Of a DNA stretch of 64,000 bases, positions 26,162 to 35,482 are shown in pieces. A model generated the notes under the pieces. It did not search any database. It was not told the origin of the DNA and saw nothing but the letters and a program-made list of their open reading frames with translations. Position 1 is the first letter of the stretch, and every line of letters starts with the position of its first letter. This stretch comes from Verrucomicrobiia bacterium DG1235 (GTDB taxonomy: Bacteria > Verrucomicrobiota > Verrucomicrobiia > Opitutales > Opitutaceae). Made by a program: the position numbers and the translations under genes. The DNA lies in the NCBI GenBank assembly GCA_000155695.1, contig DS990592.1, forward strand, positions 3,209,973-3,273,972, read 5' to 3'.

Positions 26162-26446
26162 CTATTCTTCATCGGCGAAAGGCACGATGAGTTTAGCCAT
26201 GTCGAACATCATTTCCTTCGATGGAAAATTCGGGTCGTTGAGCAGTTCCTTGCCTTTGGCTACGACCTCTGGACGAACTTCTGGTTCGGAGCGGAGAGCG
26301 TCGAGAGCGCTGAGCTGAAGCTTGTCGCCTGATGCCGCTGCGGGACCGCTTGTCCCCTCGGAGGGCTTGGCAGAAACGTTTTGCCCGGACTTGCCGAGAT
26401 TCTGCGCATAGACGTGACTGGCGTTGTTTTGTGGATTTATGTTCAT
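26162..26446 (-). CDS. small protein with FlgM-like C-terminal half (candidate)
   Basis: A 94-residue protein. The first 40 residues are polar and likely disordered (Asn-, Ser- and Gly-rich). The second half has DKLQLSALDALR followed by PEVRPEVVAKGKELLNDPNFPS and a last helix MMFDMAKLIV. The D..QLS, VR.E.V and closing helix recall the sigma-28-binding half of FlgM anti-sigma factors. Position between fliS and fliD fits. The similarity is weak, so this is a suggestion. Confidence 0.5.
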   Translation of the reverse strand: MNINPQNNASHVYAQNLGKSGQNVSAKPSEGTSGPAAASGDKLQLSALDALRSEPEVRPEVVAKGKELLNDPNFPSKEMMFDMAKLIVPFADEE

Positions 26447-29189: not shown

Positions 29190-29783
29190 CTAGGAATTTC
29201 GCAGCATTTTTATCGCTCGATCAAGCTCCACCCGGTCATTCACACTCGCCAGAAACTGCCCCTCCGAAACCTCAACCCTCTCAATATCGGCGTCCTCCAA
29301 AAAACGCCGTAAGCTCGACCGCCCCTCGGCGGCCAGGGCCTCGAGTAAAGGCAATGCCTCCGCCTCATAAATCGAACACATCGGCTCGGGCTTCCCATCG
29401 CTCGCTAGGAACGAAGTCGCCAACTTGGAAGCATCCCGCCGATTCGCGATTTGAACAATATGGGCGACTTCCAAAAACGGCATATCGCAGGCCAAAACGA
29501 AAACCGGCAATCCCCGAGCCACTCGCAAGGCGGCTATCACTCCCGCCATTGGTCCGCTCGTCTCCGCCGCGTCCACAAGCGTATCCACCTCATGTGAAAC
29601 CTCTCGCTCACTCCCGGGATTCGACCCCACGCAGATTGCTCGCTTGGTACAGACCGTGTCGAGAAGTCCAAGGAGATAATCGAGCTGAGAAATCCCCGGC
29701 CTTACCTCAAGCGTAGCCTTGTCTTCTCCCATGCGCCGACTCTTCCCGCCGCATAGCACCGCACCTAGAATTTCTCTCTTCAT
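29190..29783 (-). CDS. mobA: molybdenum cofactor guanylyltransferase (MobA-like)
   Basis: A 197-residue nucleotidyltransferase that attaches GMP to molybdopterin. Seen: the N-terminal signature LCGGKSRRMGEDKA (about 10-23), TSGPMAG near 75 and the metal-binding ACDMPF (about 98-103). The C-terminal SLRRFLED helix is typical. It overlaps the stop of the upstream Maf-type gene by one base, so the two are cotranscribed, an odd pairing. A MOSC-domain gene lies at the head of the same minus-strand run. Other IspD/GlmU-like nucleotidyltransferases, such as a sugar-nucleotide enzyme, are less likely given LCGGKS. Confidence 0.85.
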   Translation of the reverse strand: MKREILGAVLCGGKSRRMGEDKATLEVRPGISQLDYLLGLLDTVCTKRAICVGSNPGSEREVSHEVDTLVDAAETSGPMAGVIAALRVARGLPVFVLACDMPFLEVAHIVQIANRRDASKLATSFLASDGKPEPMCSIYEAEALPLLEALAAEGRSSLRRFLEDADIERVEVSEGQFLASVNDRVELDRAIKMLRNS

Positions 29784-31579
29784 CAGCCGCTCGCAGAGGA
29801 AGCCTTCGATCTCGACGCAGAAGAGTCCATCGCCGCAAGCACGTGATAAGTCCCCTCAGCTATCGCCCACAAATAGGATTTCAAAGACTCCAACTCATCT
29901 CCATCCAACCCGTTTTGACGCGCAATTAAGGACCTCGCCCGTCGGTGGACATGCAATTCAAGCTTCAATTGCCCGTCCTCCAATATCGCCTTAAACGCCG
30001 CATCCGAATCCAGCATCGCATCGAGTTTCGCCTTCGACGCCCGAGCCTGCTCAAGCTCCCTCGCCCCAGTCTCAATTGCCAGGGCCTCTCGCAAGGCGAA
30101 AGAACAGGCCGATTCCGCATAGGAGCGAAACTCCCCTAACGCTTTGCCCACCTTGCCCTTGCCTGACCAATCCGCGCTCAAAATCGACTTTACGCGCGAC
30201 CAGCCCCTGGGCACATCGCCGCCGCCAAAAGATTCAAGAGCGGCCGGAGCCTTCTTCAATTCCAGATAGGGCATACCGTCGATACGAGCTCCCAGTCGGG
30301 AAAGATTATAAAGCGTGAGCCCTTGGCCATTCTTCAGCTTCAACTCCTTCGAATAAGCGCGAGCGAGCTCCTCAAACGTCCTCAGATAGACAAACAACTT
30401 CTCCTCGACCGGAACGCGATCAAGCGTATTGCCCGGCATCCAACGGCATTTCTGAAGATTCACGCGATCCGCGCCTTCATCACTATAGAAGGAGTCGCTC
30501 GCATGAAGCTGCCCATCTGCGCTCGCCGCCAAATCCTGTCCGACAAAAAACACCGCCGGACTTCCCAGTATCACAGCCAAGTCAAAGGCGCACGCCGACA
30601 CCGTACCTTGCTCGGTGACGAATGCCTCCCTGGTTCGACCCGCAGCCTTCCGAAAATAACTGGCCACCGTGTTTCCAAAAGACCAAGCAGCGACGCTTCT
30701 TCCAAATCTACGAACCACCTCTGGATACACCATAAATGGGCAGAGCAAAACCGTCTCGCCGAGCTCCACCCCATCAAATCCACGATCCGTCGTCTGATTC
30801 GGATCCGCCGCCAAAACGAAATGAGGCCGCACTCCCCCCCTCACCAAGGCGCGAATCGACGAATTCCCCGCCACGATCACCGCCCGATCCTGGGCCCAGC
30901 GCAGAAAATCCAAAGACTCGTCTAGCGAGGGCCCCGCCCCCGCCATGATGAGAGGCGCTCCCTTGAAGGCTCCCTGAAACTCGATCGGGTCGGGCGTCAA
31001 AACCAAGCTTCGGAGATTCTCCAAAGTGTTCCGCTGCCACAGCCCGGACTGGGTCAGATTCGTGCCGAACATCTTGCGCCACATCTCCAGCTGCCTCGCG
31101 AACTCGAGAAAAAACGCGGCGTAATAGTCCTCGGCCTCCACGAAAAAAGGAGCGAATATCAAAGGCTCAGCGTTCGAGTACTCCACCACCGTAAACGATG
31201 CCAGCGAACGGAAAAACGCGTCGTCCAGCTCGCCAACTCCAAAAAGAAGCCGATCATCCGACAAAAGCTCCTCCGCTGCCGCCGTCTTCAAAAATGCCTT
31301 GAAACGAACCACATCGGGCTCCGCGCAGAAAACCAGCCCGCTATCCTTAGGCATGGCTCTCAACAAAGCGAGCAGGTGAGAGCCGTCGCCCACTCCGCTC
31401 ACCGCGATCGCGATATCCGCTGGAATCTTAAAGTCCACAAGCCACCGCTCGATCAGACGATCCGGATCCGCAGACCGGCTTCGCCACGGAGCCAGGTCCA
31501 CCTCCCTCGACGGCGCATTAAGCACGCGTTGCTTCAAATGCATATGCCTTTCGGCAAATCGTTGTGCCGCCTTGCTCAA
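29783..31579 (-). CDS. Maf-type flagellin glycosyltransferase (DUF115/MptE-like)
   Basis: A 598-residue cytoplasmic protein. The central MptE-like/DUF115 domain (about 205-400) has MAGAGPSLDES (212-222), VIVAGNSSIRALV (233-245), RPHFVLAADPNQTT and FVGQDLAASADGQLHAS. These are hallmarks of motility accessory factors that transfer pseudaminic or legionaminic acid onto flagellin. The N-terminal domain carries a Rossmann-like AVSGVGDGSHL. The C-terminal 150 residues are helical. It overlaps the unknown 202-residue gene by 4 bp (ATGA) and mobA by 1 bp. With pseBCGI nearby and two flagellins downstream, pseudaminylation of flagellin is the inferred role. Confidence 0.88.
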   Translation of the reverse strand: MSKAAQRFAERHMHLKQRVLNAPSREVDLAPWRSRSADPDRLIERWLVDFKIPADIAIAVSGVGDGSHLLALLRAMPKDSGLVFCAEPDVVRFKAFLKTAAAEELLSDDRLLFGVGELDDAFFRSLASFTVVEYSNAEPLIFAPFFVEAEDYYAAFFLEFARQLEMWRKMFGTNLTQSGLWQRNTLENLRSLVLTPDPIEFQGAFKGAPLIMAGAGPSLDESLDFLRWAQDRAVIVAGNSSIRALVRGGVRPHFVLAADPNQTTDRGFDGVELGETVLLCPFMVYPEVVRRFGRSVAAWSFGNTVASYFRKAAGRTREAFVTEQGTVSACAFDLAVILGSPAVFFVGQDLAASADGQLHASDSFYSDEGADRVNLQKCRWMPGNTLDRVPVEEKLFVYLRTFEELARAYSKELKLKNGQGLTLYNLSRLGARIDGMPYLELKKAPAALESFGGGDVPRGWSRVKSILSADWSGKGKVGKALGEFRSYAESACSFALREALAIETGARELEQARASKAKLDAMLDSDAAFKAILEDGQLKLELHVHRRARSLIARQNGLDGDELESLKSYLWAIAEGTYHVLAAMDSSASRSKASSASG

Positions 31580-32190: not shown

Positions 32191-32694
32191 CTAGACAGAG
32201 GGCTCTAGCGACAATTCGCCCTTACCCAAAATACCCGACGAGAGAATCCTGCACCGCAATCCGCCTCTATTCTCAAGAGCCGCATGCGCCCCCGCCCCGA
32301 TCGACTCGTCCATCCACGGGCAAGGCTTGCACTGCTCCACCCCCCGCAACTCGACATCGCCCAATCTAAAATCCTTGCCCACCAGTCCGTTCAGATCAAC
32401 TCCACTCACTACGATGTTTCGGCGAAACTCCCGCAAATCCGGCACCTCCAAACCGAGATCCGACTCCATCGCGCGAATGTCCTCTAAAGCGATCAGGCTC
32501 AACTGGCCCTTGTAGTCCTCCTTGAAGTCGAAATAGCGATCGCCCACTAAGCCCCGACCCTTCACGCACTCTACCGAATCCACGCTCGTCGTGTTGTGGT
32601 TCAGCCGACTCTTCCCATAGCGACCTTTGAAATCGTGCCCGCTAGATATATAGATTTGGTGTATCAGGATCTTGGTGCTCATGAAGACATTCAA
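32191..32694 (-). CDS. MOSC domain protein
   Basis: A 167-residue protein with a MOSC fold, the sulfur-carrier domain found in Moco sulfurases and in YiiM-type reductases. Seen: KGRGLVGDRYFDF (about 45-57), GQLSLIALEDI, FRRNIVVSGVDLNGLVGKDF and the Cys-containing VEQCKPCPWMDE (about 115-126), where the first Cys is the candidate persulfide carrier. An inner ATG five codons in is an alternative start. It lies 6 bp before the unknown 202-residue gene and in one run with mobA, so molybdenum-cofactor metabolism may be mixed into this operon. Confidence 0.85.
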   Translation of the reverse strand: MNVFMSTKILIHQIYISSGHDFKGRYGKSRLNHNTTSVDSVECVKGRGLVGDRYFDFKEDYKGQLSLIALEDIRAMESDLGLEVPDLREFRRNIVVSGVDLNGLVGKDFRLGDVELRGVEQCKPCPWMDESIGAGAHAALENRGGLRCRILSSGILGKGELSLEPSV

Positions 32695-32861
32695 AGGTGA
32701 GAAACCAGAGCTATACGCCCCGACAACGCGAGCGCAATAGCGAAGCGAACGCCACAGCCCCTAACACGCACGCCCCTATCGTAAGCCCAAGCCTCCATCA
32801 GGCCGGTGAGTAGATTCCGCAGCTGGCTGAGCGAAAATAGCCATAACGATAGAGTTTTTCC

Positions 32862-32888
32862 TAAAGTTTCCAAGTGAGCTCCCGATAC
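32862..32888 (+). promoter_or_regulatory. candidate sigma-28 (FliA) promoter of flagellin 1
   Basis: TAAAGTTT (8 of 8), an 11-nt spacer, then CCCGATAC (6 of 8 to GCCGATAA). Predicted start near 32895 gives a leader of about 90 nt before the ATG at 32984. Confidence 0.85.
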
Positions 32889-32940
32889 TATCAGGAGTAA
32901 CAAAAACCACGGTGCAGCGGACACCCTAACCCCGCAAACT

Positions 32941-32956
32941 GCGACAAGGACGTCGC
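32941..32956 (+). promoter_or_regulatory. CsrA-type hairpin, flagellin 1 leader (upstream site)
   Basis: The perfect 5-bp stem GCGAC / GTCGC closes a hexaloop AAGGAC. CsrA binds GGA displayed in such loops. Confidence 0.65.
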
Positions 32957-32968
32957 GAAAACCTAAAA

Positions 32969-32980
32969 AACAAGGAAGTT
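32969..32980 (+). promoter_or_regulatory. Shine-Dalgarno of flagellin 1 in CsrA-like context
   Basis: AAGGA lies 7 bp before the ATG and is flanked by short arms AAC / GTT around the hexaloop AAGGAA. It is both the ribosome site and the second GGA motif of the leader, 26 nt after the first. Confidence 0.65.
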
Positions 32981-32983
32981 AAA

Positions 32984-33796
32984 ATGTCAGTAGTAATAAA
33001 CACCAATAGCGCAGCTATATCTGCGTCCAACAATCTAGCATCCAGCAATGCGATGCTTCAGCGTAGCCTCAACCGACTGTCTAGCGGGTCCAAAATAGTG
33101 AACCCAGCTGACGATGCCGGCGGCCTCGCCGTGTCAATGAAACTGTCCGCTACCATCAAACGTAACGCAGCAGTTAACAACAACATCAACAACGCTCGTT
33201 CCTTCCTACAAACACAGGACGGAGCTTACCAAACGGCCACCAAGGTGCTCGACCGTATGTCAGAACTCAAGGTTCTCGCAGACGACGTCACTAAGAACAG
33301 CACCGACAAGTCGAACTACAATACGGAGTTCCAGCAGCTCAAGAAGCAGCTCAGCGCCCTCACATCGGAAACATTCAATGGCGTCTCCCTCTTCAAGGCG
33401 GGCTCAGACACCTTGACTGTCGCCACCACCGAATCCGGTGGAAGCACGATGACGATCGATCAACCAGATCTAGCGTCGCAAATCGGCACCACCCTCCTGG
33501 ACGGAGACACCACGACAGTCACCGCCCTGAACCTCAGCACCGTCACCTCTGCGATTCAGTCAGTTGCGACCTTGCGAGCCACCAACGGCGCGCAGTCAAA
33601 CCGCCTGTCTTTCGCATCCGAGATGCTGACTGTGAACAAGGAGAACCTCGAGGCCGCGAACAGCCGTATCATCGACGTCGACGTCGCCGAGGAGTCCACA
33701 CAGCTCGCCCGATACAACATCCTGGTACAAGCAGGATCAAGTATGCTGCAGCAAGCTAACTCCTCCACTCAGATCGCTCTCAAACTTTTAGGTTAG
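32984..33796 (+). CDS. fliC: flagellin, paralogue 1
   Basis: A 270-residue flagellin, made of the D0/D1 core with a very short middle (about 140-185) and no D2/D3. Seen: the N-terminal MSVVINTNSAAI and RLSSGSKIVNPADDAGGLAVS. The C-terminal helix has NRLSFASEMLTVNKENLEAANSRI and ends MLQQANSSTQIALKLLG, the FliS-binding tail. The middle is rich in Thr and Ser, possible O-glycosylation sites. About 270 residues is short but common outside enterobacteria. It has its own sigma-28-type promoter and a structured leader. Codon use is close to the genome background. Confidence 0.96.
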   Translation: MSVVINTNSAAISASNNLASSNAMLQRSLNRLSSGSKIVNPADDAGGLAVSMKLSATIKRNAAVNNNINNARSFLQTQDGAYQTATKVLDRMSELKVLADDVTKNSTDKSNYNTEFQQLKKQLSALTSETFNGVSLFKAGSDTLTVATTESGGSTMTIDQPDLASQIGTTLLDGDTTTVTALNLSTVTSAIQSVATLRATNGAQSNRLSFASEMLTVNKENLEAANSRIIDVDVAEESTQLARYNILVQAGSSMLQQANSSTQIALKLLG

Positions 33797-34068
33797 TTAC
33801 TACTACGACATAGGTTCCCCGCCGACGGGCGGGGCGCCTAACCCGTAGCAGCCCAAAAAATCCTAAAAAAAGAGACTCGCGCCCAGCGACTGAACCTAGC
33901 GATTCAAAACATCGCCAAAGGCTACACGCTGCCAAAACGCAACGAGATCAGACCTCACAAAAACCAGCTATACAGGCAAACTGTATCTAAAAAACAAGGA
34001 CGTGCGTAAGTCGTATCAAAAACGCTAGAGCTCCTCATGACCCATTTGAGTAGAAATGCTCAAAATGC

Positions 34069-34095
34069 TAAATGAACCGCAAAAGCCTACGATAC
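34069..34095 (+). promoter_or_regulatory. candidate sigma-28 promoter upstream of flagellin 2
   Basis: TAAA, 15 nt, then TACGATAC (CGATA core intact). A transcript would start near 34102, directly before the AAGGATC hairpin. It would give flagellin 2 a leader of about 565 nt or make a separate RNA. Confidence 0.55.
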
Positions 34096-34103
34096 ACCAT
34101 CGC

Positions 34104-34120
34104 AACACAAGGATCGTGTT
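34104..34120 (+). promoter_or_regulatory. CsrA-type hairpin at predicted 5' end
   Basis: A perfect 5-bp stem AACAC / GTGTT with loop AAGGATC, at nucleotides 3-19 of the predicted transcript. Confidence 0.5.
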
Positions 34121-34172
34121 CAAAAAACAAGCGGCCCAATCGGGCGGCTCCTCTAAAAAAATGACTAGCAGC

Positions 34173-34184
34173 ATCAAGGATGAT
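34173..34184 (+). promoter_or_regulatory. AAGGAT site, duplicate of the flagellin 2 ribosome site
   Basis: ATC-AAGGAT-GAT followed by AAAGCA repeats the 17-bp leader phrase at 34650-34666 (ATCAAGGATGATAAAACA) with one change, but no flagellin follows here. Confidence 0.5.
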
Positions 34185-34623
34185 AAAGCAAGTTGTGTCG
34201 GACCAGACGGCGGATACCGCCAACACCGGACTGGACACAAACGGATCGCGCCAAAACCGCGTCCCCGACACTGCCGCCTACATGCCCTCTTCATTAGAGG
34301 CCTCGAGCGAGCCCTTCCGACCAGATCGCGACTGGTCCACCCTTGGAGATGCACTCCAGCCGATAGCGCAACCCCAGGCGACCAACACATCCGCCAAAAA
34401 ACGAAGCGCAGACTGCCCAGGAGCCAACACCGCCCGGCGACACGCCTCATACCAATTTCACCAACACCAACCAACAACCAACGAGCGCGAGTCCCACTCG
34501 TCGCCCCAAGCAATGATAAACGACCAACACCTTTCGAAAACACGGTTCTATCTCGAATAGACCCTGAAATGAATTTCCGCCAAATAGGCAGAAAAGCGAA
34601 CGCCTGACGCTACTCTCAGGCAT

Positions 34624-34645
34624 GCGGGGGCAAGGATGCCGCCGC
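34624..34645 (+). promoter_or_regulatory. CsrA-type hairpin, flagellin 2 leader (upstream site)
   Basis: An 8-bp GC-rich stem GCGGGGGC / GCCGCCGC with one mismatch closes the hexaloop AAGGAT. A second stem GCCTGA/TCAGGC (34602-34621) lies just upstream. Confidence 0.65.
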
Positions 34646-34649
34646 GCAA

Positions 34650-34661
34650 ATCAAGGATGAT
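34650..34661 (+). promoter_or_regulatory. Shine-Dalgarno of flagellin 2 in CsrA-like context
   Basis: AAGGA lies 9 bp before the ATG inside ATC-AAGGAT-GAT. CAAGGATG matches the SELEX-type CsrA consensus ACARGGAUG closely. It is 21 nt after the loop GGA of the upstream hairpin. Confidence 0.65.
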
Positions 34662-34666
34662 AAAAC

Positions 34667-35482
34667 ATGTCAGTTGTAATCAATACAAACTCATCGGCGA
34701 TTTCCGCCAAGAATAACCTGAACAAGAGTAACGCTATGCTGCAAAACAGCTTGGCTCGACTCTCCTCCGGTTCTAAGATCGTCAACCCTGCAGATGATGC
34801 AGGTGGTCTTGCGGTATCGATGAAAATGTCAGCAGCAATCAAACGTACTGCTGCAGTTAACGACAATATCGCCAACGCTCAGTCCTTCCTGCAAACTCAG
34901 GACGGCGCGCTCGGCACAGCCACCAAGATTCTGGACCGCATGTCGGAACTCAGAACTTTGGCGGACGACGTAACCAAGAACTCTACCGACATCGGTAACT
35001 ACAACACTGAGTTCCAAGCCCTCAAGGCTCAGCTCACAGACGTCACAGCAGAAAAGTTCAACGGCGTATCTCTCTTCACATCCGCCTCTGCAGCTACTAC
35101 GCTCAACGTCAAGACTACCGAAGATGCCGGCAAGTCCGTCAACATCAGCCAGGCTGACCTCGAGGATTCAGTTACGACTGCTCTCACCAGCAGCAGTGAC
35201 ACCCTCACAGCTACGGCGCTCTCGACTATCACGACCGGTATCCAGAACGTTGCTACTCTTCGCGCTACCAATGGTGCGGAATCTAGCCGTCTCTCGTTCG
35301 CGTCTGATATGCTCACCGTGAACCAGCAGAACCTCGAAGCCGCAAACAGCCGTATCATCGATGTGGATGTTGCCTCCGAGTCCACTGCCCTCGCACGTGC
35401 CAACATCTTGGTACAGGCAGGTTCTTCGATGCTGTCTCAGGCAAACGCTTCGAGCCAGGTCGCTCTTCGTCTCTTGGGTTAA
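34667..35482 (+). CDS. fliC: flagellin, paralogue 2
   Basis: A 271-residue flagellin closely similar to the first (MSVVINTNSSAIS, SSGSKIVNPADDAGG, C-terminal MLSQANASSQVALRLLG). The centre (about 140-185) is rich in Ala, Thr and Ser and is the most divergent part. Codons differ from paralogue 1: more GGT, GCT, CGT and TCT, a pattern seen in very highly expressed genes. It ends in a strong terminator. It is probably the major filament protein; this is inferred from codon use and the terminator. The long leader and the repeated GGA hairpins suggest tight translational control. Confidence 0.96.
   Translation: MSVVINTNSSAISAKNNLNKSNAMLQNSLARLSSGSKIVNPADDAGGLAVSMKMSAAIKRTAAVNDNIANAQSFLQTQDGALGTATKILDRMSELRTLADDVTKNSTDIGNYNTEFQALKAQLTDVTAEKFNGVSLFTSASAATTLNVKTTEDAGKSVNISQADLEDSVTTALTSSSDTLTATALSTITTGIQNVATLRATNGAESSRLSFASDMLTVNQQNLEAANSRIIDVDVASESTALARANILVQAGSSMLSQANASSQVALRLLG

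Follow-up and report, generated by a model that had tools for sequence, protein, structure and literature searches.

Two flagellin genes of the marine bacterium Verrucomicrobiia bacterium DG1235 are each preceded by a leader that is very probably a CsrA-dependent translational switch. Both genes lie in a 64,000-nucleotide (nt) stretch of contig DS990592.1 (assembly GCA_000155695.1, positions 3,209,973 to 3,273,972), referred to here as the window and used as the coordinate system throughout. Each leader carries an upstream hairpin with an ANGGA loop (P3), a second ANGGA site at the Shine-Dalgarno sequence (P4) and, 5' of both, a predicted covarying pseudoknot. The nearest named loci are those of Pelagicoccus species and of strain K14 of the Puniceicoccaceae, and, judged by these neighbours, the source genome appears to be a Pelagicoccus-like member of Opitutia.

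Paired CsrA-type sites in the flagellin leaders

Flagellin 1 (32984-33796) and flagellin 2 (34667-35482), both with Pfam Flagellin_N and Flagellin_C domains, are encoded on the forward (+) strand, as are all leader elements described below. In the flagellin 1 leader, P3 is the CsrA-type hairpin GCGAC-AAGGAC-GTCGC with the hexaloop AAGGAC (32941-32956), which folds with six pairs, one of them U-G, at -8.4 kcal/mol (z -2.99), and P4 is AAC-AAGGAA-GTT (32969-32980). Their counterparts before flagellin 2 are GCGGGGGC-AAGGAT-GCCGCCGC (34624-34645; -16.3 kcal/mol) and ATC-AAGGAT-GAT (34650-34661). A first-pass annotation of the window had reported both AAGGA pairs, and its coordinates and letters proved to be right; of the two upstream hexaloop hairpins it proposed, that of leader 1 folds as described, while that of leader 2 folds but with a G·G mismatch as one of its eight pairs. 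The shared architecture without long sequence identity that it remarked upon is borne out as well, since the two leaders can be aligned by architecture over their full length. Over its full length, leader 1 is no more stable than its shuffles (z -0.28), and leader 2 is more stable (z -2.55). A sigma-28-like pattern, TAAA-N17-CGATA (32862-32887), is the putative promoter of flagellin 1 and predicts a leader of about 85-90 nt; the sigma factor and transcript start of this gene are predicted from that pattern. Of 30 loci listed, 22 have it 121-133 nt 5' of their first flagellin.

The CAAGGA motif is common in the window (48 occurrences against 29 expected), so that the motif by itself proves little, and its enrichment was set aside as uninformative. 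The paired arrangement is far more selective. When two A[AC]GGA loops, each on a stem of at least three pairs, were required 15-35 nt apart, the 64-kb window held exactly two such double hairpins, which are the two flagellin leaders; the minus strand had none. In 60 sequences from an order-1 Markov model the count averaged 0.05 per strand and never exceeded 1.

The arrangement is conserved in relatives. A set of 141 leaders was collected by a rule on the flagellin N-terminus, with no selection for structure and with genes identical over their first 60 bases counted once; the set omits starts with fewer than 110 bases upstream, and the rule missed some starts. An ANGGA lies 8-26 nt before the start in 135 of these leaders, a strictly defined upstream ANGGA hairpin is present in 104, and 102 have both. 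Of 121 leaders in which the P3 and P4 loops could both be measured, 107 have them 18-22 nt apart, near the 18-nt optimum cited in PMC4894983. A stricter form of the double hairpin (first stem of at least five pairs) was searched in loci L066-L144 (79 loci, 1.40 Mb counting both strands) and gave 78 distinct matches, of which 70 lie no more than 30 nt from a start that the flagellin rule had found. Among the remaining eight, five look like flagellin starts overlooked by the rule, one (L115) lies at the end of its locus with only two residues readable, one (L067:4456) is the K14 copy of the intergenic element described below, and one (L131:2713) looks spurious.

Separately, an ANGGA hairpin lies 83-89 nt before the start in several leaders. 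It occurs besides P3 in L062 (starts 2021 and 5963), L078 and L112 (start 3955), and with no P3 found by the rule in L057, L079 and L062 (start 4520).

A model of the leader (R1) was built without S2, one of the two pseudoknot stems, and 142 distinct rows were taken from the best 150 of its 157 matches. In these rows, which are related by descent so that cell counts are not independent events, the five pairs of P3 are formed in 99.0% of cells, with two-sided changes in all five, and the outer two pairs of P4 in 90.5% of cells, with some two-sided changes; the pairs of both elements are part of the model, and the P4 pairs fold weakly. The loops behave differently from the stems: in 112 leaders unselected for structure, the P3 loop columns hold A in 100, G in 108, G in 106 and A in 110. 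The loops and the P3 arms singled out by the first-pass annotation are conserved among relatives, the arms with compensatory changes.

R1 is specific for flagellin. In the DG1235 genome, at expectation values (E) up to 1, it placed two matches among the 150 of 1450 first-look candidates that were scored, and both are the window leaders. Across 38 genomes, comprising DG1235 and 37 relatives, it found 41 places in 19 genomes, and all 41 abut a flagellin start. When 240 genomes drawn evenly from the phylum were searched with stricter filters, 14 had matches: 13 in the family of DG1235, counting DG1235 itself, and one from a different family within the class. Matches also occur in records named Chthoniobacter or Spartobacteria (L085, L120, L129 and L139).

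The proteins expected for such a switch are encoded in the same genome. The first-pass annotation had seen neither csrA nor fliW in the window, and a genome search located one of each, about 1.4 Mb away: a single csrA (PF02599, 80-81 bits against a cut-off of 27) and, directly upstream of it, a single fliW (118 bits against a cut-off of 25), in the order flgL-like/fliW/csrA/flagellin. The best solved-structure matches are 1t3o for CsrA and 5dmb for FliW, structures from Bacillus subtilis and Geobacillus. This CsrA retains the RNA-binding residues L4 and R44, which are marked in the review PMC7652899. Within the 38 genomes, csrA and fliW occur in the identical 22, and flagellin occurs in 24 that include all of these. 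The two genomes with flagellin and neither regulator are G021, which is 81% complete, and G008, where each of the two flagellin matches begins at the end of a contig; the 14 genomes that gave no flagellin match also gave none for csrA. The flagellin gene directly after csrA (L001, 1864-2757) is itself leaderless, with no R1 match among the 150 of 1450 candidates scored.

AAGGA is also a good Shine-Dalgarno sequence, and the arms of P4 are thermodynamically weak. In an alternative explanation, the second site is nothing more than a Shine-Dalgarno sequence, and the upstream hairpin serves ribosome standby or mRNA stability and is not read by CsrA. This explanation is very improbable. The letters of the P3 loop are near-invariant across the 112 leaders while the stem letters vary with pairing kept, and a constant loop on a varying paired stem is the mark of loop recognition. 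The tracking of flagellin by csrA and fliW and the narrow loop spacing also speak against it. Several points nevertheless weigh against a CsrA switch. The role of CsrA is a prediction from sequence. The short arms that the first-pass annotation drew around the second AAGGA barely fold on their own (0 kcal/mol in leader 1 and -0.8 in leader 2), although the sites themselves are present, and the inner P4 pair is formed in only 62.4% of the R1 rows, in a model that includes the P4 pairs. The strict hairpin rule is failed by 37 of the 141 leaders, some of which have larger loops by eye, and the ribosome-site motif is absent from six. Only two of the five flagellin-domain genes of the genome carry the leader (one of the five is flgL-like), and weaker R1 places could have been missed given the share of candidates scored.

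A predicted covarying pseudoknot upstream of the paired sites

The CsrA-type switch proposed in the first-pass annotation is supported by these data, with CsrA binding as its predicted component, but that annotation missed two elements: the pseudoknots upstream of P3 and a third site pair between the genes. In the flagellin 1 leader the predicted H-type pseudoknot spans 32911-32935, with stem S1 at 32911-32914/32922-32925 and stem S2 at 32917-32920/32932-32935; in the flagellin 2 leader it spans 34595-34621, with S1 at 34595-34598/34608-34611 and S2 at 34602-34607/34616-34621. Both were assigned from geometry and covariation: the two stems covary, a strand of each falls within the loop of the other, and L1 is short and L3 longer, as would be expected of the H type. 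A best pseudoknot score of at least 22 is reached by 92% of 123 leaders against 20% of dinucleotide shuffles, and a score of at least 26 by 63% against 5%. Of the 121 leaders with any such structure, 104 have it 4-6 nt from P3.

Covariation was measured on an alignment (A2) of preselected leaders: of the 123, 103 passed a pseudoknot filter and 83 remained at an 80% identity cut, from which seven were dropped by hand and then L120, L129 and L139, leaving 73 rows. In the 103 selected leaders L1 is 1-3 nt long in 101 and L2 0-1 nt long in 84. On A2, which was aligned blind to structure, P3 is paired in 98.6% of cells against 81.1% when shuffled, S1 in 85.8% against 66.1%, and S2 in 78.3% against 63.1%. 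The covariation scores of S1 (0.469) and S2 (0.449) were reached by none of 500 shuffles, and slid versions of the stems attained at most 0.107 and 0.240, respectively. The number of pairs with two-sided changes is less telling, being matched by 53 of 500 shuffles for S1 and 93 of 500 for S2.

Because A2 was preselected, the test was redone on the 112 unselected nonredundant leaders and on the 142 R1 rows. In the 112 leaders, the six of 3160 column pairs ranked highest by a G-test with average product correction comprise three in P3, one in S1 and two in S2; pairs that fit no helix rank below these, and the remaining S2 pairs lie outside the top 30. In the uncorrected ranking, P3, S2 and S1 pairs are again among the highest, together with many that fit no helix. 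In the R1 rows, which are not independent of A2 since many seed rows of R1 recur among its matches, S2 is paired in 78.0% of cells against 63.1%, with a covariation of 0.433 against 0.201, and none of 500 shuffles reached either value. Two of the five measures applied were reached by shuffles (pairs with two-sided changes in 298 of 500, further pair types in 24 of 500).

RNAalifold, which does not allow pseudoknots, predicts only S1 and P3. That output would suit two mutually exclusive hairpins that switch between S1 and S2, a reading we consider quite unlikely: the stems share no nucleotides and the loop lengths suit a classical H-type pseudoknot, so nothing forces S1 and S2 apart. For the pseudoknot itself, the most likely role is to stabilise the mRNA or to prevent upstream RNA from pairing with P3 and P4. 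The leader matched no Rfam 15 family, either at gathering scores in the window and the loci of 16 relatives or at E up to 1 within 32600-34800. A further hairpin, with one mismatch, lies immediately 5' of the pseudoknot in the flagellin 2 leader (34574-34594) and was identified by eye from sequence and alignment.

A third site pair between the flagellin genes

The region between the two genes was compared in nine genomes, eight of the genus and G015 (locus L048). It contains, on the + strand, a dyad, TGAG-N8-CTCA (34047-34062), followed by a sigma-28-like promoter pattern, TAAA-N17-CGATA (34069-34094); a hairpin, AACAC-AAGGATC-GTGTT (site A, 34104-34120), near the predicted transcript start; and ATC-AAGGAT-GAT (site B, 34173-34184). 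The promoter pattern is present in seven of the nine genomes and the site pair is clear in six. Mean pairwise identity, taken over six of the nine (the window and L049-L053, with L046, L047 and L048 left out), is 0.75 for dyad plus promoter, 0.76 for site A and 0.83 for site B, against 0.33 for the spacers. The pairing of site A is kept through changed letters: AACAC/GTGTT here, GCAC/GTGC in L053 and CCTC/GAGG in L048. L047 lacks the pair, L046 has it incompletely and L053 has a weak site B, a variability that adds to the points listed above against CsrA control. A search of the DG1235 genome found no further copy of the element.

This element is probably the promoter of flagellin 2 together with the start of a long leader. 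Transcription of flagellin 2 in Pelagicoccus most likely begins at this promoter, about 565 nt upstream of the gene, which would give a leader with four CsrA-type sites. The same features (a promoter of its own, two ANGGA sites, a single genomic copy, and two conserved islands amid a diverged region) would also fit an independent small RNA that is transcribed by sigma-28 and sequesters CsrA, a less likely reading. Against it, no conserved terminator is seen by eye after site B, L068 has the promoter pattern without the pair, and no other sigma-28-like pattern lies between the two window genes. In relatives, flagellins also occur in tandem arrays whose genes are preceded by leaders, and the third pair might instead be what remains of a flagellin gene once present in the middle. 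This is unlikely, given that the sites are so much better conserved than the spacers and that a tblastn search of the nine intergenic stretches with both flagellins as queries returned one match, of 11 residues at E 7.9. We retain the long flagellin 2 leader as the preferred reading.

A coding explanation of site B was also considered. The frame MTS-x-IKDDKAS (34161-34195) overlaps it, with about 11 codons common to most Pelagicoccus followed by divergence; the start pattern used found no such frame in L047 or L048. Coding is unlikely, as lengths and later residues differ, and the frame may be a leader peptide or chance.

Other features of the region were recorded. The dyad just 5' of the intergenic promoter is kept and is a possible operator. 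A C-rich, G-poor stretch 5' of the flagellin 2 leader (34452-34513, CACCAACACCAACCAAC) is conserved at a mean identity of 0.63 against 0.33 for the spacers and is a candidate Rho loading site. A GC-rich hairpin without a clear U run follows flagellin 1 (33803-33848; mean identity 0.93 in six genomes). Elsewhere in the flagellar region, 29783-31579 encodes a protein with an MptE-like domain, a candidate flagellin glycosylation factor, and 26162-26446, beside fliS, encodes a 94-residue protein that is FlgM-like by eye and has no Pfam match.

Proposed mechanism and known counterparts

In the mechanism proposed by analogy with the flaA and hag leaders described below, sigma-28 would transcribe the flagellin mRNA late in flagellum assembly, and a single CsrA dimer would occupy two ANGGA loops of one mRNA: P3, the high-affinity site, and P4, the weak hairpin over the Shine-Dalgarno sequence. 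A dimer bridging the two sites should block the ribosome, and FliW should relieve the block: export of flagellin would free FliW from flagellin to bind CsrA, and a rise of cytoplasmic flagellin would restore repression. The pseudoknot, mostly 4-6 nt 5' of P3, may act as an mRNA stabiliser that shields P3 and P4 from upstream pairing. A more elaborate two-input riboregulator can be imagined, in which the pseudoknot docks or senses FliW, another protein or a small molecule and is coupled to the CsrA dimer site, while the extra pair at the 5' end in Pelagicoccus makes the flagellin 2 mRNA a CsrA sponge that ranks both flagellins; this is doubtful.

The closest counterpart is the flaA leader of Campylobacter jejuni, as presented in PMC4894983. 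Its two adjacent stem-loops with ANGGA loops are separated by 21 nt, with the second covering the ribosome site, and it shares sigma-28 transcription, compensatory changes in relatives and FliW as antagonist. It differs in belonging to another phylum, in its length of 45 nt, which leaves no room for an upstream pseudoknot like that found here, and in that CsrA binding was shown there and is predicted from sequence here; flaA mRNA also titrates CsrA (PMC4894983). The Bacillus subtilis hag leader, according to PMC7652899 and PMC6529632, is alike in layout, with two CsrA sites, one over the Shine-Dalgarno sequence, and FliW as a protein antagonist; the word pseudoknot is absent from PMC7652899. 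The third pair, near a predicted 5' end, recalls the E. coli flhDC leader with its two CsrA sites near the 5' end, although CsrA there shields the mRNA from RNase E (PMC7652899). In the open-licence literature, as represented by listings and the beginnings of abstracts, no report of CsrA control of flagellin in Verrucomicrobiota or of a pseudoknot in a CsrA flagellin leader was found.

These results would extend CsrA-FliW control of flagellin to Verrucomicrobiota and add to CsrA flagellin leaders a covariation-supported pseudoknot that has no match in Rfam 15 as searched. That all 22 of the 38 genomes with csrA also have flagellin suggests that CsrA serves mainly the flagellum here, not carbon metabolism, and in this group the switch probably matches flagellin output to the building of the flagellum.

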